This document shows positions 1 to 63,011 of a stretch of DNA of 64,000 nt, one piece after another; positions within the stretch are counted from its first letter, which is position 1, and every line of letters starts with the position of its first letter. The position numbers and the translations under genes were made by a program. The notes beneath the pieces were generated by a model. It was not told where the DNA came from, made no database searches, and saw only the letters and a program-made list of their open reading frames with translations. Source of the DNA: Desulfobacteraceae bacterium (lineage in GTDB: Bacteria; Desulfobacterota; Desulfobacteria; Desulfobacterales; Desulfosarcinaceae); contig JABDIN010000029.1 in NCBI GenBank assembly GCA_013003715.1, forward strand, positions 1 to 64,000. The letters are read 5' to 3'.

Positions 1-461
<461 letters not shown>

Positions 462-2928: not shown

Positions 2929-3038
2929 AAACATGCATTATTGAGGTCAATGGAGAAAGATATTTGATGATATGAAGTAATGAGGAAGGTCTAAAAGGGA
3001 TGCTGCCGGACAATGATATCCGTAATGCGATTTTGTTT

Positions 3039-3216
3039 ACCCCCACCAATGTGCCGTGTTGGCAGGTCTTTGAACCTGACGAACGAGGTGGGCGCCTTAT
3101 AGTTTCTTTAGGCTTTTCTGTACGCGCAGAACCTGCTCACCAAAACCAGTGAAAGCTCCCGAAAATAAAGTGTTGGGTCAAAGCACATCTTCCAATCACG
3201 AGCACGGCAGGGGTGT
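3039..3216 (-). ncRNA. ssrS: 6S RNA (RNA polymerase-binding regulatory RNA)
   Basis: 6S RNA mimics an open promoter and sequesters housekeeping RNA polymerase. The evidence has three parts. First, long-range closing pairs: TGCCGTG (3209 to 3203) pairs with CACGGCA (3058 to 3052), and an outer CCCC pairs with GGGG near 3041-3044. Second, the internal segment GGTGAGCA, then GTTCTG-CGT-CAGAAAAGCCT, then a CACCT and a GGTTCAAAGACC-type hairpin follow the order of E. coli 6S (GGTGAGCA, GCTCGG-CGT-CCGAGAAGCCT, CACCT, GAACC). Third, the length is about 178 nt and the gene sits directly after zapA, the classic 6S location. The ends are approximate. Confidence 0.85.
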
Positions 3217-50880: not shown

Positions 50881-51954
50881 TCATGGCACCAATCCGGCCA
50901 CCGTTTCCGCATCCAGTTTCCCTACCAATCCGATGATCAGTTGAATGGCACTGTCGTAATCCTCACGATGTATGATAGCCGAGTGGCTGTGAATGTGCCG
51001 GGCGCATACGCCCAGTACGATGGTGGGCACACCGATACCATGCAGGTGGATCTGCGAACCGTCCGTTGCCCCGCCGGTCATGGCGGAAAATTGCAGGGGA
51101 ATATTCAGTTCATCGGCTGTGCTGATGACCAGATCCCTCAACTTCAAATTGGGTATCATCCGGGCATCGAATAGCGACAAACAAGGGCCCTGCCCCAGCT
51201 TGACATCCGATTCTTCAGGTTTTATACCCGGTACGTCGCCGCAGATATCCGATTCGAGCACAATGCCCACATCCGGGCTGACAATTTCCGAGCTGGTCTT
51301 GGCACCGCGGGTACCGACCTCTTCCATTACGGTGGCCACTCCGAACAGCTGATTGGGATGCGGGTTCTTCGAAAAATGTCCCAGGGCATCGATCATCATG
51401 GCCACACCCACGCGATCATCGAATGCTTTACTCATGTAGGACTTGCCATTGGCGAGCACCTTAAAATCAGAGTCGGGAACGGCCGGATCGCCTTGTCTCA
51501 CCCCAAGGGATTCCACTTCCTCTCTGGAGGATGCACCGATGTCGATGTACATATCCTTCTTCTCAACAACTTTTTTACGCTCCTCACTCGGCAGCATGTG
51601 TGGCGGCTTGGCACCGATGACCCCCAGAATATCACCCTTATGGGTTTTGATGATCACCCGTTGACCAAGCAAAACCTGGTCCCACCAACCGCCGAGGGGG
51701 AGAAATTTCAAAAATCCCTCTTTTGTGATGTAGTTAATCATGAAGCCGATTTCATCCATATGGGCGGCGAGCATCACCTTTGGCCCCTTCTCTCCCGCAG
51801 CGCAGATAAGGCTGCCGATGCGATCCTGCTCAATTCGTCCGAGGGATTCGAGGTGACACCGGATGAGATGTCGAATATCGGATTCGTATCCCGGCACTCC
51901 GTGTGCCTCTGTCAGTTCTTTCAATAGTTGTTGCGTATGATCCGTGATTTTCAT
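50881..51954 (-). CDS. M42-family metallopeptidase
   Basis: The 357-aa tetrahedral-type aminopeptidase (FrvX/TET family) forms large cytosolic complexes. The dinuclear metal and catalytic residues are visible in AHMDEIGFMI (about 59-68), AFDDRVGVAM (about 172-181), MEEVGTRGA (about 210-218), LESDICGD and ARHIHSH. AAGGAGATAA precedes the ATG. It is the last gene of the nine-gene minus-strand block, 19 bp after yebG. Confidence 0.95.
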   Translation of the reverse strand: MKITDHTQQLLKELTEAHGVPGYESDIRHLIRCHLESLGRIEQDRIGSLICAAGEKGPKVMLAAHMDEIGFMINYITKEGFLKFLPLGGWWDQVLLGQRVIIKTHKGDILGVIGAKPPHMLPSEERKKVVEKKDMYIDIGASSREEVESLGVRQGDPAVPDSDFKVLANGKSYMSKAFDDRVGVAMMIDALGHFSKNPHPNQLFGVATVMEEVGTRGAKTSSEIVSPDVGIVLESDICGDVPGIKPEESDVKLGQGPCLSLFDARMIPNLKLRDLVISTADELNIPLQFSAMTGGATDGSQIHLHGIGVPTIVLGVCARHIHSHSAIIHREDYDSAIQLIIGLVGKLDAETVAGLVP

Positions 51955-51973
51955 TTATCTCCTTGCCTATGCC

Positions 51974-52294
51974 TCATTTTTTTTTGCCTTTACCCGGCTT
52001 ATCTTCCGCCTTCTTGTCATCATCAATACCGCTTGCGGCTGCTTTTGCCTGGGGCATTTTCGGTTTGATGTTTTTTAAAATCCGTATCACTTCCTCCCGG
52101 TTTCTGGACAGATATACGGTGAGTTCATCAAGGGAATCCTCTTTGATATCCACATTTTCAGCTTTCCCGATGAACACAAAAAGCTTTTCCGCGATGTCGA
52201 GCATTTTATCATGCTCGTCTGCTTCCTTTTTCGACGTATACATGCCCACCTCTTTCCCATTTCTAATAACATGGTAACGCACTTCTACTGCCAT
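51974..52294 (-). CDS. yebG: YebG-family protein
   Basis: The 106-aa protein is similar over its first 75 residues to E. coli YebG (MAVEVRYHVIRNGKEVGMYTSKKEADEHDKMLD region). It ends with a lysine-rich tail (KPGKGKKK). In E. coli YebG is SOS-induced; no obvious LexA box precedes the gene here. It lies 38 bp after the RACo-like gene and 19 bp before the peptidase gene, so it is probably part of the operon. Confidence 0.85.
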   Translation of the reverse strand: MAVEVRYHVIRNGKEVGMYTSKKEADEHDKMLDIAEKLFVFIGKAENVDIKEDSLDELTVYLSRNREEVIRILKNIKPKMPQAKAAASGIDDDKKAEDKPGKGKKK

Positions 52295-52332
52295 CTTAAT
52301 TTCCTCTCGTTAATTAAACGCCATTCATTATG

Positions 52333-53955
52333 TTATCCGAACACCTGCTGCACCTTTACCGAAGGGAATCGGGATCGATCCGTATGCGGTAGAAACCTGG
52401 CGGCTGAAAACCGGTTCATGAAATCCTGGTTCACATTGAGTTCCAGATAGGTAATACCATCCCGGATGCTATCGATGGTATCCAATGCCGACCGGGATGA
52501 CAATGCCAGAGTTGCCCCCTCAAGCGAACTATTGCCTAAAGATGTATAAACCGCCAACGGCAGATCCGGAATCATGCCGATGGTAATCGCTGAAACCGGA
52601 TTTATCAGAGACCCGAAAGTCCCTGCAATATAAAACCGGTCCAACTGATCCTGGGACAACCCCACCGAACCGGTAATGGTTTCGAGGATGGTGTACATGG
52701 CTGCCTTGCTCCTGACCAAGCTGTCCAGATCCGTCTGGCTGAAGCAAAGATCCTCACCCGTTTCCGAAGCCTCCCCGGAGACCAGTACAAAATGATTCTG
52801 ACCGTCAATCGTTCTGAACCGGTCGCCGCAGGCATCCGGATTCAGCTTCCCCCGAATATCGATTTTCCCTTTGGAAAACAAGGCGGCGGCCAGGTCGATA
52901 ACGCCTGAACCGCAAATACCGATGGGGGGAAGATCGCCGATGGTGCTGACGGCAAATCCGCCGTTCCCGGATTCCGCCTGAACACGATCAATAACACCGT
53001 CACCGGCCGGCATGCCGATTTTCGAAACACCCCCCTCCAAGGCCGGACTTGCGGCCCCGGCACAAGCCATCATCCAGTCCCGGTTCCCCAACACCACTTC
53101 CGCATTGGTCCCCACGTCCACCAGGATACCCACCTCGGATGATCGATGGAGGCCCGAATACAAAATACCGGCCACCAGATCCCCGCCAAAATAGCTGCCG
53201 ACATTGGGGAACACGACAACCCGGGCGGATGGTCCGGCACGGATCCCGATATCCACGGCCTTCAGCAGCCCCGGACGATTAGACGCCGGGATGTAAGGTT
53301 CCCTGATGATCCAGCGGGACGGCAGGCCCAAAAAAAGATGGGTCATGGCCGTATTGCCGGCAACGCTGACCAGATGAACGTCGGACGGATCAATGCCAGT
53401 ATCCCGGCAAAGGCTTTCCAGATGAGCGTTGATGCCGTCGATGATCAAGGTGGTGAGATGCTTCCCGCCTGATTTGCTGTCCGCATGATGAATCCGGGCG
53501 AGGACATCCGGACCGACGGTCGTCTGCGGATTGTTGAAACTGACCTCGGCCATTGGCTCACCAGTGGCCAGATCCATGAGCCGCATCACCACCTGCGTGG
53601 TCCCCAGATCAATTGCGGTACCGCAAAGACGGTGAATCTCGACATCCGCCGCCGCATGCACCACCAGCCATCGGGACCTGTCCTTGATCAGAACACAGCG
53701 TATGGCCGTATCACCGGTCCTGATCACCTGCGGCAAGGCGCGCATGACATCGATATCCACATCGACCATGTCCGCACCGACGTAATCCCGGAGAGCACGG
53801 ATCAATCGTTCGACATCAGCCGTATTGTCCTTGAGAGACGGTTCCGGCAATCGAATCCTGGCGACCCACCCCTTGTTCAAGCCACCGCCACTGGTATTGT
53901 CGTCATTCATCTGTTTCGTATTCGTAATAACCGGAGGCGCAATTTCAGTAAGCAT
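52333..53955 (-). CDS. RACo-type ASKHA protein (DUF4445) lacking the ferredoxin domain
   Basis: This protein is related to reductive activators of corrinoid proteins. The 540-aa protein has the linker domain (VARIRLPEPSLKDNTADVERL, about 31-51) and an ASKHA ATPase core with AIDLGTTQVVMRL (about 114-126), SVAGNTAMTHLFLGL and VDVGTNAEVVLG. The C-terminal GSGVIDLAAAL and AGTFGSLI motifs follow. The usual N-terminal 2Fe-2S domain with its four Cys is absent. Start choice is uncertain: the frame opens at 54030, and neither 54030, 53955 nor 53910 has a ribosome binding site. Confidence 0.85.
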   Translation of the reverse strand: MLTEIAPPVITNTKQMNDDNTSGGGLNKGWVARIRLPEPSLKDNTADVERLIRALRDYVGADMVDVDIDVMRALPQVIRTGDTAIRCVLIKDRSRWLVVHAAADVEIHRLCGTAIDLGTTQVVMRLMDLATGEPMAEVSFNNPQTTVGPDVLARIHHADSKSGGKHLTTLIIDGINAHLESLCRDTGIDPSDVHLVSVAGNTAMTHLFLGLPSRWIIREPYIPASNRPGLLKAVDIGIRAGPSARVVVFPNVGSYFGGDLVAGILYSGLHRSSEVGILVDVGTNAEVVLGNRDWMMACAGAASPALEGGVSKIGMPAGDGVIDRVQAESGNGGFAVSTIGDLPPIGICGSGVIDLAAALFSKGKIDIRGKLNPDACGDRFRTIDGQNHFVLVSGEASETGEDLCFSQTDLDSLVRSKAAMYTILETITGSVGLSQDQLDRFYIAGTFGSLINPVSAITIGMIPDLPLAVYTSLGNSSLEGATLALSSRSALDTIDSIRDGITYLELNVNQDFMNRFSAARFLPHTDRSRFPSVKVQQVFG

Positions 53956-54069
53956 CAACCGGGGAAGAATATTCCACAAACAACATAATGTTGCAAGGAG
54001 ATCATTTTTCGACCCGGGATTGATCCGCATGGGTGCGCGCGGTATTGAACAGGGATAGGAAGGGACGGC

Positions 54070-54819
54070 TTACGATATCCGCTTCTCGATTTCCCCGAGA
54101 ACGCGATTCATGGTTTCACCGGCGTTGCCCATGAGGGCCAAGTCGGTGACCTGGTTGGTTAGGGGCGTGGATTCGGGATTGATTTCCACGATGACCGCGC
54201 CGTTTTGCTTGGCGATGACCGGTATGTAGGCGGCGGGTTGAACAAATGCGGATGTCCCCACCACAAGCATGACATCACAGGTTTCCGCAAGCTGCTGGGA
54301 TCGCATCAGGGCGGCCGGCGGAATCATTTCGCCAAAAAACACGATATCCGGCCGTAAAATTCCGTTGCAGTCGCATCGTGGCGGAATCTGCGTCATTTTG
54401 ATATCGGTGGTTGCATAGATTCTGTTGCACTCACTGCAGAAGTGCCGGATAAAACTGCCATGAAATTCGATAACATCCGTATTACCGGCAACCTGATGCA
54501 AACCATCCACATTCTGGGTGATAATACTGGTCAGAATCCCCAATTCTTCCAATCGGGCTAGTCCCTTGTGTCCATCGTTGGGACGGGCCTTGTCCAGCAA
54601 GTCTTTCATGCCCTTGATCAATACATTCCAGACCGACACCGGATCTTTTGTAAACGCATCGATATGGGCGAATTTCATGGGATCTATTTTTTCCCAAACC
54701 CCGCCTTTGCCCCGAAACGGGGGGATGCCGCTTTCCACGGAAATACCGGCACCGGTCAGTGCAATGGTCTTGCTGGATCGGGATAAAAGGTCGGCAACCT
54801 CTTCAATCAGGGTAGTCAT
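54070..54819 (-). CDS. Sirtuin (NAD-dependent protein deacylase)
   Basis: This enzyme removes acyl groups from lysine using NAD. The 249-aa protein has GAGIS (23-27), TQNVDGLH (101-108), catalytic His120 in EFHG, and zinc Cys128, 131, 149 and 151. The Tyr-x-x-Arg pair of desuccinylases is not seen, so acetyl or short acyl groups are likely. Its ATG lies 1 nt after the stop of the MBL gene; a TTG 15 nt upstream would overlap it. Confidence 0.93.
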   Translation of the reverse strand: MTTLIEEVADLLSRSSKTIALTGAGISVESGIPPFRGKGGVWEKIDPMKFAHIDAFTKDPVSVWNVLIKGMKDLLDKARPNDGHKGLARLEELGILTSIITQNVDGLHQVAGNTDVIEFHGSFIRHFCSECNRIYATTDIKMTQIPPRCDCNGILRPDIVFFGEMIPPAALMRSQQLAETCDVMLVVGTSAFVQPAAYIPVIAKQNGAVIVEINPESTPLTNQVTDLALMGNAGETMNRVLGEIEKRIS

Positions 54820-54820
54820 T

Positions 54821-55663
54821 TCAGACCATGTCAAATGTCATGTCGCTGCCCACGGCGAAACAATGCAAGGCCATGCCTTTTTCTTCGATGATACGATGGC
54901 AATCATCCACCACTGCATCCACTTCACTGTCCGTACGTTCCTGATTGTGATGGAACAGGCCGAACTGCTTCACACTTGCTGCAAAAGCCAGGTCCAGCGC
55001 ATCGGTGTATGTCGAATGTCCCCATTCGATCATTTCATCATATTCATCAGGTTTATATTCGGCGTCATGGATCAACAGATCGGCACCATCGCAAAAGGAT
55101 ATGTAATCATCGAATTTCCGCCCTCCCGGGTGTACAAATCCGAGTTCATTGTCCGTCAGAAATACAAAGGATTTTCCATCTTCAATGAATTTATATCCTT
55201 TGCCGGTGTTGGGATGGCTGATTGGGAAAGGAATGACGGTGATGGATCCGATTTCGAATGCTTCGGGATTACCGGGCTCGTAAATTATTTTGGCTTTCAG
55301 ATCTGAATATTTGACCGGGAAATTGGGTGGCGCCATGACTTTGGAAAACATGCTCTCCATGTATTTCTTGTGAAACGGGCCGCGGTGCATGCGGATTTCC
55401 TGATGTTCGAGAAACAGGGGCCTGAAAAAAGGAAATCCCATGAGGTGGTCCCAATGGGCATGGGTGAGAAGAAAATTATATTTCCGGGTTCCTTCTTCAT
55501 GCAAAGAATTGCCCAGCCGGCGGATACCTGTTCCGGCATCGACAATGATGATATCGCCTTCACGGCTTCTGATTTCAAGACAGGTGGTGTCACCACCGTA
55601 CTTTATATACTCTTTCCCTGAAACCGGTATGGAGCCTCTTGAACCCCAGCATTTAATATACAT
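54821..55663 (-). CDS. MBL-fold metal-dependent hydrolase
   Basis: The 280-aa protein begins MYIKCWGSRGSIPVSG and has the metal motif LTHAHWDHLMGFPFF (about 66-80), FLTDNELG and a final FHHNQERTD. It fits the RNase Z/PhnP-like branch of MBL hydrolases, as also found fused to regulatory domains. The substrate is unknown. It is tightly linked to the sirtuin gene. Confidence 0.88.
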   Translation of the reverse strand: MYIKCWGSRGSIPVSGKEYIKYGGDTTCLEIRSREGDIIIVDAGTGIRRLGNSLHEEGTRKYNFLLTHAHWDHLMGFPFFRPLFLEHQEIRMHRGPFHKKYMESMFSKVMAPPNFPVKYSDLKAKIIYEPGNPEAFEIGSITVIPFPISHPNTGKGYKFIEDGKSFVFLTDNELGFVHPGGRKFDDYISFCDGADLLIHDAEYKPDEYDEMIEWGHSTYTDALDLAFAASVKQFGLFHHNQERTDSEVDAVVDDCHRIIEEKGMALHCFAVGSDMTFDMV

Positions 55664-55705
55664 TGAATACCCTGGATCCGGAAAAATTATTTGTGGATTC
55701 TCCGA

Positions 55706-56530
55706 TCAGCATTCCGGAATCGTTTTCCCGTAAAACGTGTGCCAGACGCCGTCACGTTGCCAGGTTTTGATAATCGAAACCTGGATTCTTTCCAGTTCAC
55801 GGCTGATTTGCCTGGCCTCGCTACGGAGAAGGCCGGATAATATAAAATGCTTTTCTCTCAAAAAACCCTTTGACACAACCAAATGCCGCATCACGTCATA
55901 ATGTATGTTCGATATCATAAGATCGACCGGCAAGTCCATAAATTTCTCCGCATCCCCCTGCACCACCATGATCCGATCGTGCAATCGATTCAGGCGGATA
56001 TTACGATTTGCAGTGGTCGCCGCCAATCCATTGAGTTCCACAGCGATCACCCGGCGGCATCCGTACCGCGCCGCCGCCAATGCCAGCAAACCGGTACCGG
56101 TGCCGATATCCAAGGCCAGATCCGGTGCCCCTTCGGCCATGGCAAGCTCCAGGGCTTCGAGGCAATCCCGTGTGGTCGGGTGTGTGCCAGTGCCGAACAC
56201 AAGGCCGGGATCAAGTATGATCGTCCGTTGCGAGTTCTCTGTTCCGTCCGCATTCCATGGTGGGCAAATCGTCAGGCCACACACCTGCAGGGGTACCACT
56301 GGGCCACCCTGCCACTCTTCATAACTCATCCGGTAATGATCAATCAGGCTGACCTCCGGTTGCTCACGGACAATTGATTCAACAGCATCCATCGATGGAC
56401 TGGAGAAGAAAAGAAATGAGTATTCATCCTCTTCCCAGTTTCCCAGGAAATTGCTGAATTCGGCCGTGAGGCAATTGCCCAAACGCCCCCGGAGATAATA
56501 AATATACAAATCCCGGTATGGTGCAGTCAT
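55706..56530 (-). CDS. prmA: 50S ribosomal protein L11 methyltransferase
   Basis: This SAM-dependent enzyme methylates L11 lysines and the N-terminus. The 274-aa protein has LDPGLVFGTGTHPTTRDCLEAL (about 104-125, the family signature), SAM motif LALDIGTGTGLLALAAARYG, and NIHYDVM in place of the usual NILA-type motif IV. The ATG at 56530 is chosen because the longer frame would overlap the CBS gene. Confidence 0.9.
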   Translation of the reverse strand: MTAPYRDLYIYYLRGRLGNCLTAEFSNFLGNWEEDEYSFLFFSSPSMDAVESIVREQPEVSLIDHYRMSYEEWQGGPVVPLQVCGLTICPPWNADGTENSQRTIILDPGLVFGTGTHPTTRDCLEALELAMAEGAPDLALDIGTGTGLLALAAARYGCRRVIAVELNGLAATTANRNIRLNRLHDRIMVVQGDAEKFMDLPVDLMISNIHYDVMRHLVVSKGFLREKHFILSGLLRSEARQISRELERIQVSIIKTWQRDGVWHTFYGKTIPEC

Positions 56531-56598
56531 CGGCGGGCAACGCTTATGCAGGACGTGCGTGTCATCATCATATGTTGAGGCACCCCATTTCGTTGCAG

Positions 56599-57270
56599 CT
56601 ACTTGGGAATTTCGTCCAGGCACCAATCCATAGGATCAATCAGGGTATATCCCAGCGCCTGCAAATCCCGTTTGATGGGGCCCACATTATTGGTCAACAG
56701 GTAAGGAAATACGGCGCGCTTGTCTTTCTCCCAGTATCTGGCGACCAGTATACTTCCAATGGAAATATTTTTCGCTGTAATGGCATCCACGATAATCTTC
56801 AGTTGACCGACTTTTTCTTTGGCGATGATACCCAGCAGTGTACCGGGCTGGCCGATTCCCAACACATTGGCAAAAGCACGCAATAAATCCCGGACGGAAA
56901 TAATCCCTTTCAATTGATGCTTATCGTCCACCACGGGAAAGGCGCCCACCTTTTGTTTCAATATCATGAGCAATGCATCCTGGATGGTATGCGTGGGTTG
57001 AATGGTGATGGGATTGATGGTCATGATGTCACGGACTTTAAGGCAGGTCACACTGTTTCGCGCCGCCGCATTTTCCGGGTCCTTGAACAGGTCATAGGGC
57101 ATGGCGGTGCGAATATCGCGATCCGTCACAATTCCGATGAGGATATTATCATTGTCCACCACCGGGATGTGTCGAACCCGATTTTTAAACATCAGCTCCT
57201 GGGCCTCGAAAATACTGGCATCCCTTTCCAGGGTAATCACCTTTTGAGTCATTGACTTACTGACAAACAT
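56599..57270 (-). CDS. Tandem CBS domain protein with ACT domain (AcuB-like)
   Basis: The 223-aa protein has two CBS domains (about 1-60 and 78-138; MTQKVITLERDASI and VRDIMTINPITIQPTHTI), which bind adenine nucleotides. A C-terminal ACT-like domain follows (about 140-215), with KVGQLKIIVDAITAKNISI. The size and order are those of Bacillus AcuB, whose exact role in acetoin/acetate control is unclear. It lies directly after the deacetylase gene. AAAGGAGAT precedes the ATG. Confidence 0.85.
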   Translation of the reverse strand: MFVSKSMTQKVITLERDASIFEAQELMFKNRVRHIPVVDNDNILIGIVTDRDIRTAMPYDLFKDPENAAARNSVTCLKVRDIMTINPITIQPTHTIQDALLMILKQKVGAFPVVDDKHQLKGIISVRDLLRAFANVLGIGQPGTLLGIIAKEKVGQLKIIVDAITAKNISIGSILVARYWEKDKRAVFPYLLTNNVGPIKRDLQALGYTLIDPMDWCLDEIPK

Positions 57271-57356
57271 TATTATCTCCTTTAAAAAATCTTCTGTGCG
57301 AAGGCATCAGGATCGATGCGGATCCGGTTGTTCAGATCTCTAACGGGAGCAAACAA

Positions 57357-58316
57357 TCAATCCGTCTCCTCTCCCATTAAAATCCTCATATGATTACGGG
57401 CCAGTTCCGGCAACCGTTCGATACAATACCCGCCTTCGAGAACAGAAATGACCCGTCCGGAAGCATACTGCCAACCGATCCCCATGATTTTCCGCATAAT
57501 CCAGCTGAATCCGTGGGTGGTCAACTCGACATCGGACATATCATCGTCCTCATGGGCATCAAAACCTGTTGATACAATGAGAACATCCGGCTTGAATTCC
57601 TTAAAAACCGGTATCATATCATTTTCAACCAATCGTTTGTATTCCTCATCTCCTTTCCCGGGCAATACAGGAGAATTTTTAGTATAACCCTGACCCGAGG
57701 CATTTCCGGCTTCAAACTCACGGCCGGTGCCGGGAAAGGCGAAAGAGGGATGCTGATGTATGGAGTAGTAAAACACCGATGGGTCTTCTTCGAAAATGCG
57801 CTGTGTACCATTGCCATGATGCACATCGAAATCGATAATACCCACACGCTCCACTCCCCACTCCTCTTGCAGATACCGGGCGGCAATGGCCACATTGTTG
57901 AAATAACAAAAACCCATGGCCAGGCTTTCTTCTGCATGATGGCCCGGGGGCCTGACCGCACAGAACGCGTTGTCCAGCTCTCCGGCCATTACCATGCGGC
58001 ACGCTTCAAGCACTCCGCCAACCGCAAGTATGGCGGTTTCATAAGTGCTGACACACATCTGGTTGTCGGCGGAACAAAACTCCCGGTTCCCCGACAGACA
58101 GACTTCCTCGAAACGATGGATGTAATGTTCGGGGTGTATGGAGCTGATCCATTTCATCTCCGCCGGCCGGGCCGGGATAATGGTGAGCTTATCCAACAAT
58201 CCGCCTGATTTTATGCCGTCAAAAATGGCCATCAGCCTGTCGGGGTTTTCTGGATGGTAGGGGCCGGTATCATGTAGGAGATACCGGTTGTCATGTACAT
58301 AACCTGTTTTATTCAT
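57357..58316 (-). CDS. HDAC-family deacetylase (AcuC/class II-like)
   Basis: This zinc-dependent amidohydrolase removes acetyl groups from lysine or polyamines. The 319-aa protein shows all catalytic residues: His126 and His127 in RPPGHHAEES, zinc ligands Asp164 and His166 (IDFDVHHGNGT), Asp253 (STGFDAHEDD) and Tyr297 (LEGGYCIE). The N-terminal HPENPDRL motif is typical. The ATG at 58316 is preceded by GAGGGAAGG; the longer frame to 58574 overlaps cooC. Confidence 0.94.
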   Translation of the reverse strand: MNKTGYVHDNRYLLHDTGPYHPENPDRLMAIFDGIKSGGLLDKLTIIPARPAEMKWISSIHPEHYIHRFEEVCLSGNREFCSADNQMCVSTYETAILAVGGVLEACRMVMAGELDNAFCAVRPPGHHAEESLAMGFCYFNNVAIAARYLQEEWGVERVGIIDFDVHHGNGTQRIFEEDPSVFYYSIHQHPSFAFPGTGREFEAGNASGQGYTKNSPVLPGKGDEEYKRLVENDMIPVFKEFKPDVLIVSTGFDAHEDDDMSDVELTTHGFSWIMRKIMGIGWQYASGRVISVLEGGYCIERLPELARNHMRILMGEETD

Positions 58317-58413
58317 CGCCTTCCCTCTGCCGGTGATCCGATAGTGGTTGGAACCCGGGTATAACGCCTTGTTCCCGCACGGATCCACACGCGCTATCCG
58401 GGTGCCACACCGC

Positions 58414-59163
58414 TCACTGGATAATCCTGTCGAATATCTTGAAAGCCGCCTGAACCGCCGGATTGCTCTCATCCATGTCAATGGTCGGCTGACCGTCCAG
58501 ATCATACTCATATACGGTATCGTCTTCGGGAAGGTACCCGGCCAATTCCAATCCGGATTCGGATATGATCTCAAGCGCCTTGGCTGACGGCTCGGTTTTC
58601 ACCTGGTTCATCAACAGGTAGCTTTTACCGACACCGATATTCAAGTCCCGGGACAATTTATCAATTCGCAGACCGGCCTGAAGGCTGCGCCGGGAGGTGT
58701 CACTGACGATGAGCAGCACATCCACATCCTTGGTGGTAAGCCGGCTCACGTGCTCCATGCCGGCTTCATTGTCCATGACAATGTAGGGATAATTGTCGGT
58801 GAGCTTTTCCAAAAATCCCGCTAAAAGTGAATTTGCGGCGCAATAGCATCCGGCACCCTCGGGCTGCCCCATGACGATTAGATCGTAACCGTCCTGTTCG
58901 ACCACCGCTTCTTCAAGACGCATGGACATGAATACGTCCTTTGTCATGCCGCTGGGCACCTTTCCTTTCTTCATTTCTTCTCTGGCATTACCCAGTGTTT
59001 CCGTGACTTCAAGACCCAGCACTTCATTCAAATTCGCATTGGAGTCCGCATCCACAGCAAGCACGGGAGTTTTACCTTTTTTGACCAGATATTTTACCAA
59101 CATTCCGGCGACGGTGGTTTTCCCGGTTCCGCCCTTGCCGGCTAACGCAATTGAAAACGCCAT
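58414..59163 (-). CDS. cooC: CO dehydrogenase maturation ATPase CooC
   Basis: This ATPase delivers nickel to CODH or acetyl-CoA synthase. The 249-aa P-loop protein has the deviant Walker A motif GKGGTGKTT (9-17), VDADSNANL, and the CooC-type GQPEGAGCYCAAN with Cys106 and Cys108, which hold nickel between subunits. AAAGGAATG precedes the ATG. No CODH or ACS genes are in the window. It is the first gene of the nine-gene block. Confidence 0.94.
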   Translation of the reverse strand: MAFSIALAGKGGTGKTTVAGMLVKYLVKKGKTPVLAVDADSNANLNEVLGLEVTETLGNAREEMKKGKVPSGMTKDVFMSMRLEEAVVEQDGYDLIVMGQPEGAGCYCAANSLLAGFLEKLTDNYPYIVMDNEAGMEHVSRLTTKDVDVLLIVSDTSRRSLQAGLRIDKLSRDLNIGVGKSYLLMNQVKTEPSAKALEIISESGLELAGYLPEDDTVYEYDLDGQPTIDMDESNPAVQAAFKIFDRIIQ

Positions 59164-59349: not shown

Positions 59350-60504
59350 ATGGAATTTGAACTCAGCAAAACACAAAAGGACATTCAAAAAGCGGTACGC
59401 GATTTTACCAAGGGCGAGTTCGACAAGGACCTGGCCCTTGAACTTGAAAGAAAACACGAGTTTCCCAAAAAAATCTGGCAGAAAGCAGGTGAACTCGGAC
59501 TCATCGGCGTCCACTATCCTGAAAAATATTACGGTCAGGAACTGGGATGCCTGGAATGTATCCTTGTTGTCGAAGAGCTCTGCAGGGGTGATTCCACCAT
59601 CGGCAGTGCCGTTGCCCTGGCCAGCTTCGCTTCCGAATTGATTCTTCATAACGGCAGCGAGGAGATGAAGCAGACATACCTGCCGGCCGTTGCCGAGGCA
59701 AAAATGCTTTCCGCCGGTGCCTTCACCGAACCCGATCACGGTTCGGACATCACCTTCATGAACACCACCGCCGTCAAGGACGGTGACGAATGGGTGGTTA
59801 ACGGAACCAAAACCTTCATCACCAACGGGGGACTGGCCGGTTTCTATTCCGTGCTGTGTCAGACCGATCCGGATGCCCAACCATCGTACCGGGGGATGAG
59901 CCTGATTCTGATCGAAGCCGATCGCCAAGGGCTGAGTACCGCTGATGTGGGAGATAAAATGGGTATCCGCATGATGGCCACGGCCGAGGTCAACATGAAA
60001 GATGTGCGGGTACCATTGGCAAATCTTATCGGGCAAGAAGGCAAGGGTTTCTACCACGTCCTTCATTTTTTTGATGAGAGCCGCATTCAGATCGCCGCCC
60101 AGGCCCTGGGTACCGCCCAGGGTGCATACGACCGTGCACTGGTCTATGTCAAACAACGGGAGCAGTTCGGACAAAAAATCGCACAATTCCAGGCCACCCA
60201 GCACAAACTGGCGGATATGGCCACGAAAATCGAGTTGGCCCGGCTCATCACCTACAAAGCCGCTTGGAATTACGACCAGGGCCGTATCGATCCCAAGCTG
60301 ACATCAATGGCCAAAATGTATGCGGCCAGGACTGCCGTGGAAGTGGCTGACGAAGCCATCCAATTACTCGGCGGATATGGTTATATGGCCGAATACGAAG
60401 TGGAACGCTTTTACCGCGATGCGAAAATCACCGAATTGTATGAAGGAACCAAGGAAATCCAGAAAAATACAATTGCCAGCGCCCTTTTGGGCAAATTGAA
60501 GTAA
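59350..60504 (+). CDS. Acyl-CoA dehydrogenase
   Basis: This FAD enzyme oxidises acyl-CoA to enoyl-CoA. The 384-aa protein has the three family segments: an N-terminal helical domain, AFTEPDHGSDI (about 125-135) with the flavin-binding NGTKTFITNGG, and a C-terminal helical domain. The catalytic Glu is in LYEGTKEIQKNTIAS (about 363-377). The chain-length preference is unknown. GGGGGT precedes the ATG, and the gene is divergent from cooC. Confidence 0.96.
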   Translation: MEFELSKTQKDIQKAVRDFTKGEFDKDLALELERKHEFPKKIWQKAGELGLIGVHYPEKYYGQELGCLECILVVEELCRGDSTIGSAVALASFASELILHNGSEEMKQTYLPAVAEAKMLSAGAFTEPDHGSDITFMNTTAVKDGDEWVVNGTKTFITNGGLAGFYSVLCQTDPDAQPSYRGMSLILIEADRQGLSTADVGDKMGIRMMATAEVNMKDVRVPLANLIGQEGKGFYHVLHFFDESRIQIAAQALGTAQGAYDRALVYVKQREQFGQKIAQFQATQHKLADMATKIELARLITYKAAWNYDQGRIDPKLTSMAKMYAARTAVEVADEAIQLLGGYGYMAEYEVERFYRDAKITELYEGTKEIQKNTIASALLGKLK

Positions 60505-60830
60505 AACCCCGTTCAGGATCATGGATTTCCCGGAGATCCCTGAAGACGGGAAACCCGCTTATACATCGGAGCGCCTGTTCATCCATCATCAAACCGGGCT
60601 TTTCCGGGTATTCCATCTGCGGAGCAACCAGGGCGCGATGAATTAATTCTTTTCACGACTCAACAAACAGATTACAATACGACAGCTCCATCACAGACCC
60701 ATAGATTCGGTCCGGTAAATCTATCCGGCAGTTATTTACGAAAACCAAATAATCCCTAATACCGCATCAGCCTTCACCGGTCACGCAGATATCCGGGAAA
60801 ATGGCTGAAGTTAACCGCAAGGAGGTGGCA
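60505..60830. other. intergenic region upstream of the phasin-like gene
   Basis: I see no gene and no strong promoter. A loose inverted repeat TTTCCCG (about 60524) / CGGGAAA (about 60546) lies after the dehydrogenase stop without a T-run. Confidence 0.4.
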
Positions 60831-61145
60831 ATGTTGGACCTGATCAAAAAAGGAATGCTTACGGGCATCGGCCTGGCCTTAAAAACATGGGATGAAGTCG
60901 AGGAATTTGCCAAAGAACTGGAGAAAAAAGGTAAGATGACTGAGCAGGAAGGTAAACGAATGCTCGACGAACTCCGGCACAAATATGAGGACACCCAGGA
61001 AAAGCTTGAAGGAAAGGTCGAGAGCGTCGTCAAGAATTTTCTGAAAAAAGCGGACATCGTCACCGGAGACGAATTGAAAGGACTGAAAAAAGAGATCCGT
61101 GAACTGAAGAAAATCATCAGCGATCAGGGTGCGAAGGATCTCTGA
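60831..61145 (+). CDS. Phasin-like polyhydroxyalkanoate granule protein
   Basis: The 104-aa protein has an amphipathic start (LIKKGMLTGIGLALKTWDEVEEFAKEL, about 4-28) and a charged helical remainder with heptads, as in small phasin-superfamily proteins (COG3937 type). It may coat polymer granules or act as a chaperone. The ATG at 60831 has an excellent AAGGAGGTGG; the ATG 30 bp upstream has none. It stands next to a UbiB-family gene. Confidence 0.8.
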   Translation: MLDLIKKGMLTGIGLALKTWDEVEEFAKELEKKGKMTEQEGKRMLDELRHKYEDTQEKLEGKVESVVKNFLKKADIVTGDELKGLKKEIRELKKIISDQGAKDL

Positions 61146-61307
61146 TCCCGTAATCGCCATGGGTTTGCCCAAGACCACAGGGGGGTCTGCCCCGGCAGTC
61201 TGTTCCCGGAGAGGGTGTGGTATCGGGCAGCTTTGCGGCAGGAGAATCTCCGGCATCATTGAATTGAGAATCAACGAGCTCCGCTACATATTGAATAATC
61301 GGTATCT

Positions 61308-63011
61308 ATGATCAGTATCAGAAAAATAGGTGTCATCGGCCGCACCTACCGGAACCTGAACCGATATCGTCAAATCCTGGGGACTTTATTTAAATACGGC
61401 TTCGGGGATATCATCGAACTTCTCAGTATCGAGCAATATATCGAAATCGGACTCCAGATGATATCTAAAAAACGGCGGGAACGCCTGGAGCGGCTATCGC
61501 GGGCCGAACGAGTCCGCATGGCCATTGAAGAGCTGGGCCCCACGTTCATCAAATTCGGGCAAATCCTCTCCACCCGCCCGGACCTTGTACCGCCGGATTT
61601 CATTACCGAGCTGTCCCTCCTCCAGGACAAGGTGCCGTCCTTCCCCTTTGAAGAAGCCCGAACAATACTCACGGAAGAACTGGGTGATTCCATTTCGGAT
61701 GTTTTCGACGATCTCGATCCAGAGCCCCTTGCCTCCGCCTCCATCGGGCAGGTTCACCGCGCCTCACTCAAAGACGGTGAACAGGTGGCCGTGAAAATCC
61801 AACGGCCGAAAATCCGGAAACTCGTGGAGATCGATCTTGAGATCATGCTTCATCTCGCGACACTGATGGAGCGGCACGTCACCGAGCTGTCATTCCACCG
61901 CCCCATCAAAATTGTTGAAGAATTCGCCAAATCCATAGAACGGGAAATGGATTATACCATCGAAGCCGGCAGCATGGAACGTGTCTCAGCCCAATTCATC
62001 GACAATCCCCATGTCTATGTACCCAAGGTGTACCGTGCCGCCAGCACCGCGCGTGTGCTCACGTGCGAATACATCGACGGCATTAAAATTTCCAATCTGG
62101 ATCGTCTCGAAGCTTCCGGTCTGGACAGAAAGACGATTACGGACCGCGGTGCGGATGTGGTGCTGAGCCAGATCTTCGACCATGGTTTTTTTCACGCGGA
62201 CCCCCACCCCGGCAACGTTTTCGTTTTACCCCACAACGTGATCTGCCTGCTTGATTTCGGCATGATGGGATCGGTGGACAGAGGTTTACGGGAGGATTTT
62301 GTGGAGCTTGTGGACAGCGCCGTTCACCGCGATGAGAACCGTGCGGCGCATGTGCTTATCAAGATAACGGACTGGGATACGGACCAGGAACCCGATGAAC
62401 GCGTCCTATCCCGTGATGTATCGGATTTTATGGGTCTCCACCTCTACAAACCGCTGAAGGACCTTGAAATAGGCCGGTTGCTCCAGCAGCTTCTCGAACT
62501 CGCGTCAAAGCACCGGCTGCGCATCCGCCCCGAGCTTTTTCTCATGCTCAAAGCCCTTTCCACCGTGGAAGGCGTGGCCCGTCAGCTATACCCCGAATTC
62601 GACATGATCTCCAAGGCCGAGCCCTTTATCCGCCGGATAAAAATGGCGCGCTTCTCACCCAAGCGGGTCAGTGGAGACCTCATCCGGTTCTTTTCCCACA
62701 GCATGGAGTTCGTGCAGAATTTTCCGAAAGATCTTCTGGAAATTACCCGCTCCATGAGGGACAAAAAGCTCTCAATGATACTGGAACTCAAAGACCTGGA
62801 TACCATGCTGGCCACCCACGATCAGATCAGCAACCGGATCTCCTTTTCCATTATCATCGCCGCCCTGATCATCGGGTCGGCCCTCATCGTCATCTCCAAA
62901 ACCCCTCCCCTTCTCTACGGAATATCCCTTATCGGGATCATCGGTTTTCTCGCGGCCGCCATTATGGGCATCTGGCTGCTCGTGGCGATCTTGCGAAAGG
63001 GCAAGTTATAG
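61308..63011 (+). CDS. ubiB: UbiB/AarF-family atypical kinase
   Basis: The 567-aa membrane-anchored ADCK-type ATPase supports quinone biosynthesis or lipid homeostasis. The KxGQ motif is FIKFGQILSTRPDLVPP (about 81-97), and an Ala-rich loop ASASIGQVHRA and the invariant Lys in VAVKIQRP follow. The catalytic region is HGFFHADPHPGNVF and the metal motif LLDFGMMG. Two C-terminal membrane helices (about 505-560) complete it. In a Desulfobacterota cell menaquinone would be the likely quinone. Confidence 0.93.
   Translation: MISIRKIGVIGRTYRNLNRYRQILGTLFKYGFGDIIELLSIEQYIEIGLQMISKKRRERLERLSRAERVRMAIEELGPTFIKFGQILSTRPDLVPPDFITELSLLQDKVPSFPFEEARTILTEELGDSISDVFDDLDPEPLASASIGQVHRASLKDGEQVAVKIQRPKIRKLVEIDLEIMLHLATLMERHVTELSFHRPIKIVEEFAKSIEREMDYTIEAGSMERVSAQFIDNPHVYVPKVYRAASTARVLTCEYIDGIKISNLDRLEASGLDRKTITDRGADVVLSQIFDHGFFHADPHPGNVFVLPHNVICLLDFGMMGSVDRGLREDFVELVDSAVHRDENRAAHVLIKITDWDTDQEPDERVLSRDVSDFMGLHLYKPLKDLEIGRLLQQLLELASKHRLRIRPELFLMLKALSTVEGVARQLYPEFDMISKAEPFIRRIKMARFSPKRVSGDLIRFFSHSMEFVQNFPKDLLEITRSMRDKKLSMILELKDLDTMLATHDQISNRISFSIIIAALIIGSALIVISKTPPLLYGISLIGIIGFLAAAIMGIWLLVAILRKGKL

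Follow-up and report, generated by a model that had tools for sequence, protein, structure and literature searches.

Gene content of the block

The 64,000-nt stretch of Desulfobacteraceae DNA analyzed here (contig JABDIN010000029.1, hereafter the window; host genome coded G000) carries a block of nine minus-strand genes at positions 50881-59163. In this block two lysine deacylases, an HDAC-family protein and a sirtuin, lie together with accessory proteins of carbon monoxide dehydrogenase/acetyl-CoA synthase (CODH/ACS). The original prediction, made from the sequence of the window, named the nine genes as cooC, HDAC, a CBS-CBS-ACT protein, prmA, a metallo-β-lactamase (MBL)-fold protein, a sirtuin, a RACo-like protein, yebG and an M42 peptidase. 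Open reading frame (ORF), Pfam and NCBIfam scans confirmed all nine as real and placed them in these families, with four refinements: the CBS-CBS-ACT protein is AcuB, the HDAC is nearest to class II enzymes, the prmA gene encodes a paralog of PrmA, and the RACo-like protein has no ferredoxin domain. With conserved starts, the gaps between neighboring ORFs are 1, 19, 38, 42, 68, 86, 97 and 159 bp. The predicted maximum of about 115 bp depends on the choice of start. For HDAC, the conserved start is at 58316; an alternative start at 58574 would overlap cooC. A promoter and terminator scan gave no more sites than shuffled sequence.

A seven-gene operon conserved in Desulfobacterales

Neighborhoods from genomes of the same order were scanned with all window proteins (n=105). 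Many are cut by contig ends, so that presence counts for the 3' end of the operon are lower bounds. An ortholog of HDAC was found in about 92 of 146 same-order genomes, at 57-68% identity. The order cooC-HDAC-AcuB-prmA-MBL-SIR2-RACo was not permuted in any of the 105 neighborhoods, some of which have missing members; AcuB follows HDAC in 88 and HDAC follows cooC in 87. The complete set was present in 27/105, many of the remaining neighborhoods ending at a contig edge. This grouping of seven genes exceeds chance expectation by far.

YebG and M42, on the other hand, were beside the block in 0/105 neighborhoods, including the 51 that reach the downstream RACo-like gene and those of the three other sampled genomes of the host's family. 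Conservation of the predicted block is thus borne out for seven genes. A nine-gene operon is ruled out, YebG and M42 being private neighbors.

AcuB and its HDAC partner behave as a pair

Residues 3-213 of the CBS-CBS-ACT protein align with residues 3-207 of Geobacillus stearothermophilus AcuB (9s4w, E=1.9e-25), ACT domain included, and further solved AcuB structures were also matched (9qs7, 9s4v and 5awe). Pfam recognized only the CBS pair, with no match in the ACT part, a result superseded by the structure matches. The nucleotide-binding residues Arg33, His34 and Arg51, named in PMC13039410, are kept in 86/88, 86/88 and 88/88 aligned proteins, respectively. By homology, we identify this protein as AcuB. 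In Bacilli, the CBS domains of AcuB bind AMP, ADP, ATP and diadenosine tetraphosphate (Ap4A), and its ACT domain inhibits the class I deacetylase AcuC (PMC13039410, PMC13121692). It should be noted that these two 2026 papers conflict on Ap4A, the inhibition or binding of AcuC by AcuB being abolished in PMC13121692 and strengthened in PMC13039410, a disagreement that bears on any prediction for this operon.

The HDAC has its fold, metal ligands and catalytic Tyr all present, and its GHH, DVHHGNG, GFDxH and GGY motifs are invariant or nearly so in 91 aligned proteins. Its nearest PDB relatives are HDAC6, HDAC4 and HDAH, and it has a LEGGY motif. Class I chains are missing from its 60 top PDB matches (the 60th at E=7e-35), which are all class II HDACs or amidohydrolases related to them. 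Judged from these relatives, without direct comparison to any AcuC sequence, the HDAC is class II-like and not a class I AcuC. The predicted resemblance to acuB/acuC consequently stands as a type of pair, AcuB with a deacylase, and falls for the HDAC as AcuC.

The two genes come and go together. Where cooC is followed by at least 3 kb of sequence, HDAC and AcuB were both present in 73 blocks and both absent from 13, with HDAC alone in 1. About a dozen genomes have the operon without the pair, keeping cooC and MBL, usually prmA and the RACo-like gene, and often the sirtuin. By parsimony, HDAC presence or absence changes 11 times over the cooC tree, with at least 3 changes forced by well-supported branches, and one genus is itself split (G072 without the pair, G003 and G113 with it). 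Outside the order, the pair was found without the other operon genes, both in a phylum sample (L246-L250) and in named records (L002, L005, L007-L010). Given their joint loss and stand-alone occurrence, HDAC and AcuB behave as a functional pair, one that can disappear as a unit.

CooC and the RACo-like gene track ACS

The CooC of the block matches CooC1 (3kje; phmmer E=4.6e-23) with alignment of the deviant Walker A motif and of the CxC site for metal, and these motifs are kept in 105 aligned proteins. In L239-L242, from related genomes, relatives 51-57% identical to it lie in acs clusters (L239 and L240 among them) or beside a RACo that bears an iron-sulfur (FeS) domain; in the cooC tree, they branch outside the operon-type cooC. 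The CooC of the block is thus a genuine one. The acs cluster of the host genome has neither cooC nor RACo adjoining.

Co-occurrence was counted in 97 high-quality genomes, in which ACS was scored by PF03598 and corrected with PF03599 (86 ACS-positive, 11 ACS-negative). AcsB was replaced as sole marker, AcsC/AcsD having recovered six genomes without detected AcsB. Presence in ACS-positive vs. ACS-negative genomes was 78/86 vs. 1/11 for cooC (p=3.5e-8), 73/86 vs. 1/11 for the RACo-like gene (p=8.6e-7) and 62/86 vs. 3/11 for HDAC (p=0.005, a weak tracking), by Fisher tests that ignore shared ancestry, the ACS-negative genomes coming from seven family codes. The predicted link to CODH/ACS is supported by these counts for cooC and the RACo-like gene. 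For the deacylases, no strict tie to the Wood-Ljungdahl pathway holds: 24 of the 86 ACS-positive genomes lack HDAC, and two ACS-negative ones keep HDAC, AcuB and the sirtuin, which rules out a strict ACS-HDAC link.

In one genome (G013, locus L237), a stretch of under 20 kb holds the RACo-like gene along with an acs cluster, a distant cooC (42%) and a RACo that has the FeS domain, a layout in which the RACo-like gene is physically linked to acs.

The RACo-like protein has lost the redox parts of RACo

The alignment of the operon's RACo-like protein with RACo (3zyy) covers residues 131-630 of the latter, a range which implies that the [2Fe-2S] domain is missing. No [2Fe-2S] ferredoxin domain was found in the window protein or in any of 51 complete orthologs; two FeS pattern matches (L141, L142) fall some 300 residues upstream of the conserved RACo-like protein. 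Ser398 of RACo serves as a ligand to the cobalt of CoFeSP, the corrinoid iron-sulfur protein (PMC4934906). This position is Ala, within a CAGAA motif, in 51/51 orthologs and in the window protein, and Ser in the paralog at G000:C29 and in the RACo of acs clusters L237, L241 and L242. The G000:C29 paralog keeps both the FeS domain and Ser398, and is likely the working RACo. A further FeS-bearing paralog, at G000:C55 in a methyltransferase cluster, also has Ala. Loss of Ser398 alone is therefore not decisive, and the Ser would mark activators of CoFeSP rather than corrinoid activators generally.

The ATPase motifs DLGT, DVGTNAEV and AGtFG are conserved in the orthologs, and the operon proteins form a clade separate from FeS-bearing RACo. 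An ordinary RACo is ruled out by two features, the absence of the FeS domain and the Ala at Ser398. From its alignments, then, this protein is an ATPase stripped of redox parts and not a working RACo: the RACo-type protein of the original prediction does track ACS, and is not an ordinary corrinoid activator.

In G049 (L231:11375-15182), an insert splits the RACo-like gene; it encodes a reverse transcriptase (PF00078) on the other strand and is probably a group II intron.

The PrmA paralog, the MBL hydrolase and the sirtuin

The PrmA of the block scores 126 bits against TIGR00406, under the cut-off of 183, while the canonical PrmA, on another contig of the genome (G000:C68), reaches 215 bits. 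A housekeeping PrmA acting on ribosomal protein L11 is ruled out on these two grounds. An AlphaFold2 model (pLDDT 84.5) aligned over its whole length to Thermus thermophilus PrmA, N-terminal substrate-recognition domain included. The model suggests that the paralog is probably a protein methyltransferase, with no target assigned.

The metal ligands of the MBL protein (HxHxDH, H150, D171, H238) are invariant in 69 aligned proteins. Its model (pLDDT 81.8) gave Foldseek matches to 1zkp, 6kns, RNase Z and PhnP, and by fold it is of the RNase Z/PhnP/YhfI type; the fold search points to no substrate.

The sirtuin has the SIR2 catalytic His and zinc cysteines, with TGAG, TQN, EFHG and four Cys conserved, and its nearest solved structure is Archaeoglobus fulgidus Sir2-Af1. 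With its score above the family cut-off, it bears out the prediction of a second, NAD-dependent deacylase in the block. The genome carries another sirtuin at G000:C46, which would allow the operon copy to serve a dedicated role.

In two genomes from a single genus (L133 and L236), an insert between MBL and the sirtuin encodes a Ser/Thr protein kinase that has a cyclic-nucleotide-binding domain, along with a PP2C phosphatase that has a PilZ domain (assigned by Pfam in L236 and by ORF resemblance in L133). This insert brings phosphorylation genes into a protein-modification locus.

Features of the window and neighboring genes

Table 1. Features located in the window, in operon order followed by neighbors and RNA genes
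Feature	Position	Strand	Supporting evidence
cooC, CODH nickel-insertion ATPase of CooC type	58414-59163	-	P-loop GKGGTGKTT; CxC at C106-Y-C108
Class II-type HDAC lysine deacylase	57357-58316	-	Pfam PF00850, E=3e-98
AcuB, tandem CBS (Bateman) + ACT, predicted nucleotide-sensing HDAC partner	56599-57270	-	9s4w match
PrmA paralog, two-domain S-adenosylmethionine (SAM)-dependent methyltransferase, probably of protein	55706-56530	-	TIGR00406, below cut-off
RNase Z/PhnP/YhfI-like MBL-fold hydrolase, metal ligands intact	54821-55663	-	Pfam PF12706
Sirtuin, NAD-dependent protein deacylase	54070-54819	-	NF001753, above cut-off; Pfam PF02146
RACo-like ASKHA ATPase without [2Fe-2S] domain	52333-53910	-	PF14574, E=1.4e-91
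YebG family, local neighbor outside conserved operon	51974-52294	-	Pfam PF07130
M42 aminopeptidase, local neighbor outside conserved operon	50881-51954	-	Pfam PF05343
Acyl-CoA dehydrogenase, divergent flank	59350-60504	+	Pfam and NCBIfam
6S RNA	3036-3216	-	
16S rRNA gene, 5' part	1-461	-	

In the gene-order surveys, roughly half of the genomes have the divergent acyl-CoA dehydrogenase as a conserved gene flanking the operon. Together with a phasin-like gene and UbiB it forms a second conserved neighborhood (59350-63011 in the window) that was seen in many genomes, and which is adjoined by an electron transfer flavoprotein (ETF):quinone oxidoreductase in several relatives.

A possible energy-gated deacylation module

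We tentatively favor, at somewhat less than even confidence, the idea that the locus is a seven-gene accessory operon for CODH/ACS in Desulfobacterales, with an energy-gated deacylation module built in. The observations behind it are the gene content and order, the co-loss of HDAC and AcuB, the identity of AcuB and CooC, the redox loss of the RACo-like protein and the co-occurrence of cooC and the RACo-like gene with ACS. From these we infer that AcuB inhibits this HDAC, which substrates are acted on, and what the PrmA paralog, the MBL protein and the RACo-like protein do. The CBS domains of AcuB would sense adenine nucleotides (AMP/ADP/ATP or Ap4A) and, in the inhibitory state, its ACT domain would cover the HDAC active site. 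Once released, the HDAC, with the NAD-dependent sirtuin, would strip lysines of their acetyl or other acyl modifications, on CODH/ACS as well as on further enzymes that handle acetyl-CoA. CooC would insert nickel into CODH, the PrmA paralog may methylate a protein of the same system, and the RACo-like ATPase may bind CoFeSP or some related partner, acting on it mechanically without reducing it. In Clostridium, enzymes of the Wood-Ljungdahl pathway including CODH/ACS are subject to lysine acetylation (PMC7439476, PMC11370222), making a deacylation of CODH/ACS plausible.

Several results weigh against this proposal. As the HDAC is class II-like, its binding by AcuB is putative. The gap in HDAC among ACS-positive genomes and the shared ancestry behind the Fisher tests loosen the tie to ACS. 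In ACS-negative G012 and G015, where the locus is known by its flanks, HDAC, AcuB and the sirtuin are kept and cooC and the RACo-like gene are lost; the deacylases therefore have at least some role without ACS and need not act only on CODH/ACS. Lastly, the flank, with its acyl-CoA dehydrogenase and the ETF:quinone oxidoreductase of some relatives, fits general acyl-CoA metabolism equally well.

A wider housekeeping role for the deacylases fits almost as well, although on the whole we consider it rather unlikely. In such a scheme HDAC-AcuB and the sirtuin would clean or tune many proteins in acyl-CoA-rich cells, gated by energy charge, and would share an operon, not targets, with cooC and the RACo-like gene. 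The retention of the deacylases in G012 and G015, the pair's stand-alone occurrence elsewhere in the phylum, the acyl-CoA-related flanks and the many substrates of Bacillus AcuC (PMC13039410) all speak for it; what it leaves unexplained is why the deacylases stay between cooC and the RACo-like gene, both of which track ACS. A dedicated CODH/ACS modification switch would account for the locus in a narrower way. The RACo relative, without its electron-carrying and cobalt-binding parts, would use ATP to hold or load the corrinoid protein, and the AcuB-gated HDAC, the sirtuin and the PrmA-type methyltransferase would set the modification state of CODH/ACS in response to NAD and energy charge, and so tune whether it runs toward acetate oxidation or CO2 fixation. 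We judge this unlikely.

Deacetylation of acetyl-CoA synthetase (AcsA) by HDAC or the sirtuin, less probable again, is suggested by the identity of AcuB, by a bona fide AcsA at G000:C16 with a close relative at G000:C46, and by the resemblance of the two deacylases to the Bacillus AcuC/SrtN pair. Against it, the HDAC is not a class I AcuC, no acsA was found beside the block in the window, AcsA being located on other contigs, and no AcuA-type acetyltransferase gene was found in the block, as the original prediction had stated, acetyltransferases elsewhere in the genome not having been searched for. A PatZ-type acetyltransferase was rejected as well: the three ATP-grasp_5 proteins of the genome (700-740 aa) are too short for its GNAT domain and, by length, look like plain acyl-CoA synthetases. 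Finally, a metal/cofactor maturation operon for CODH/ACS (CooC, RACo-like, PrmA, MBL) with the deacylases as functionally unlinked passengers would suit the dozen or so otherwise intact blocks without HDAC-AcuB, but is improbable given that the pair is kept across most families, always at the same position, and that the sirtuin is kept in many HDAC-less blocks.

Post-translational control of CODH/ACS has been studied mainly in acetogens, and we know of no account of how sulfate reducers switch this enzyme on, off or in direction. The literature searched, with subscription journals mostly outside it, held no description of this operon. With an energy sensor, a methyltransferase and two deacylases set beside CODH/ACS accessory proteins in a conserved operon, the control of CODH/ACS in sulfate reducers becomes directly testable. 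AcuB control, worked out in 2026 in Bacilli with a class I AcuC, would be extended to a partner HDAC of class II, and RACo relatives that lack the redox parts are shown to form a widespread clade.

Comparison with known systems

The closest parallel is the acuABC system of Bacillus and Geobacillus, with which the operon shares a CBS-CBS-ACT AcuB with its nucleotide residues, a genetic coupling of AcuB to an HDAC-family deacylase, and a sirtuin as second deacylase. It differs in having neither AcuA nor an acsA alongside, in the class II-like HDAC, and in the setting of the pair, which is accompanied in an accessory operon for CODH/ACS by a sirtuin, the MBL and RACo-like proteins and a PrmA paralog. 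Its CooC resembles the CooC/AcsF maturation ATPases (CooC1, 3kje) in its P-loop and CxC and has relatives in acs clusters, whereas the operon cooC lies apart from acs genes and heads a protein-modification operon. The RACo-like protein shares the linker, middle and ASKHA ATPase domains of RACo (3zyy), but has no [2Fe-2S] domain, has Ala for the cobalt-binding Ser, and belongs to a separate clade. Similarly, the two-domain architecture and SAM-binding domain are those of the PrmA ribosomal protein L11 methyltransferase, while the operon copy is a paralog under the family cut-off, with the canonical PrmA elsewhere in the genome.

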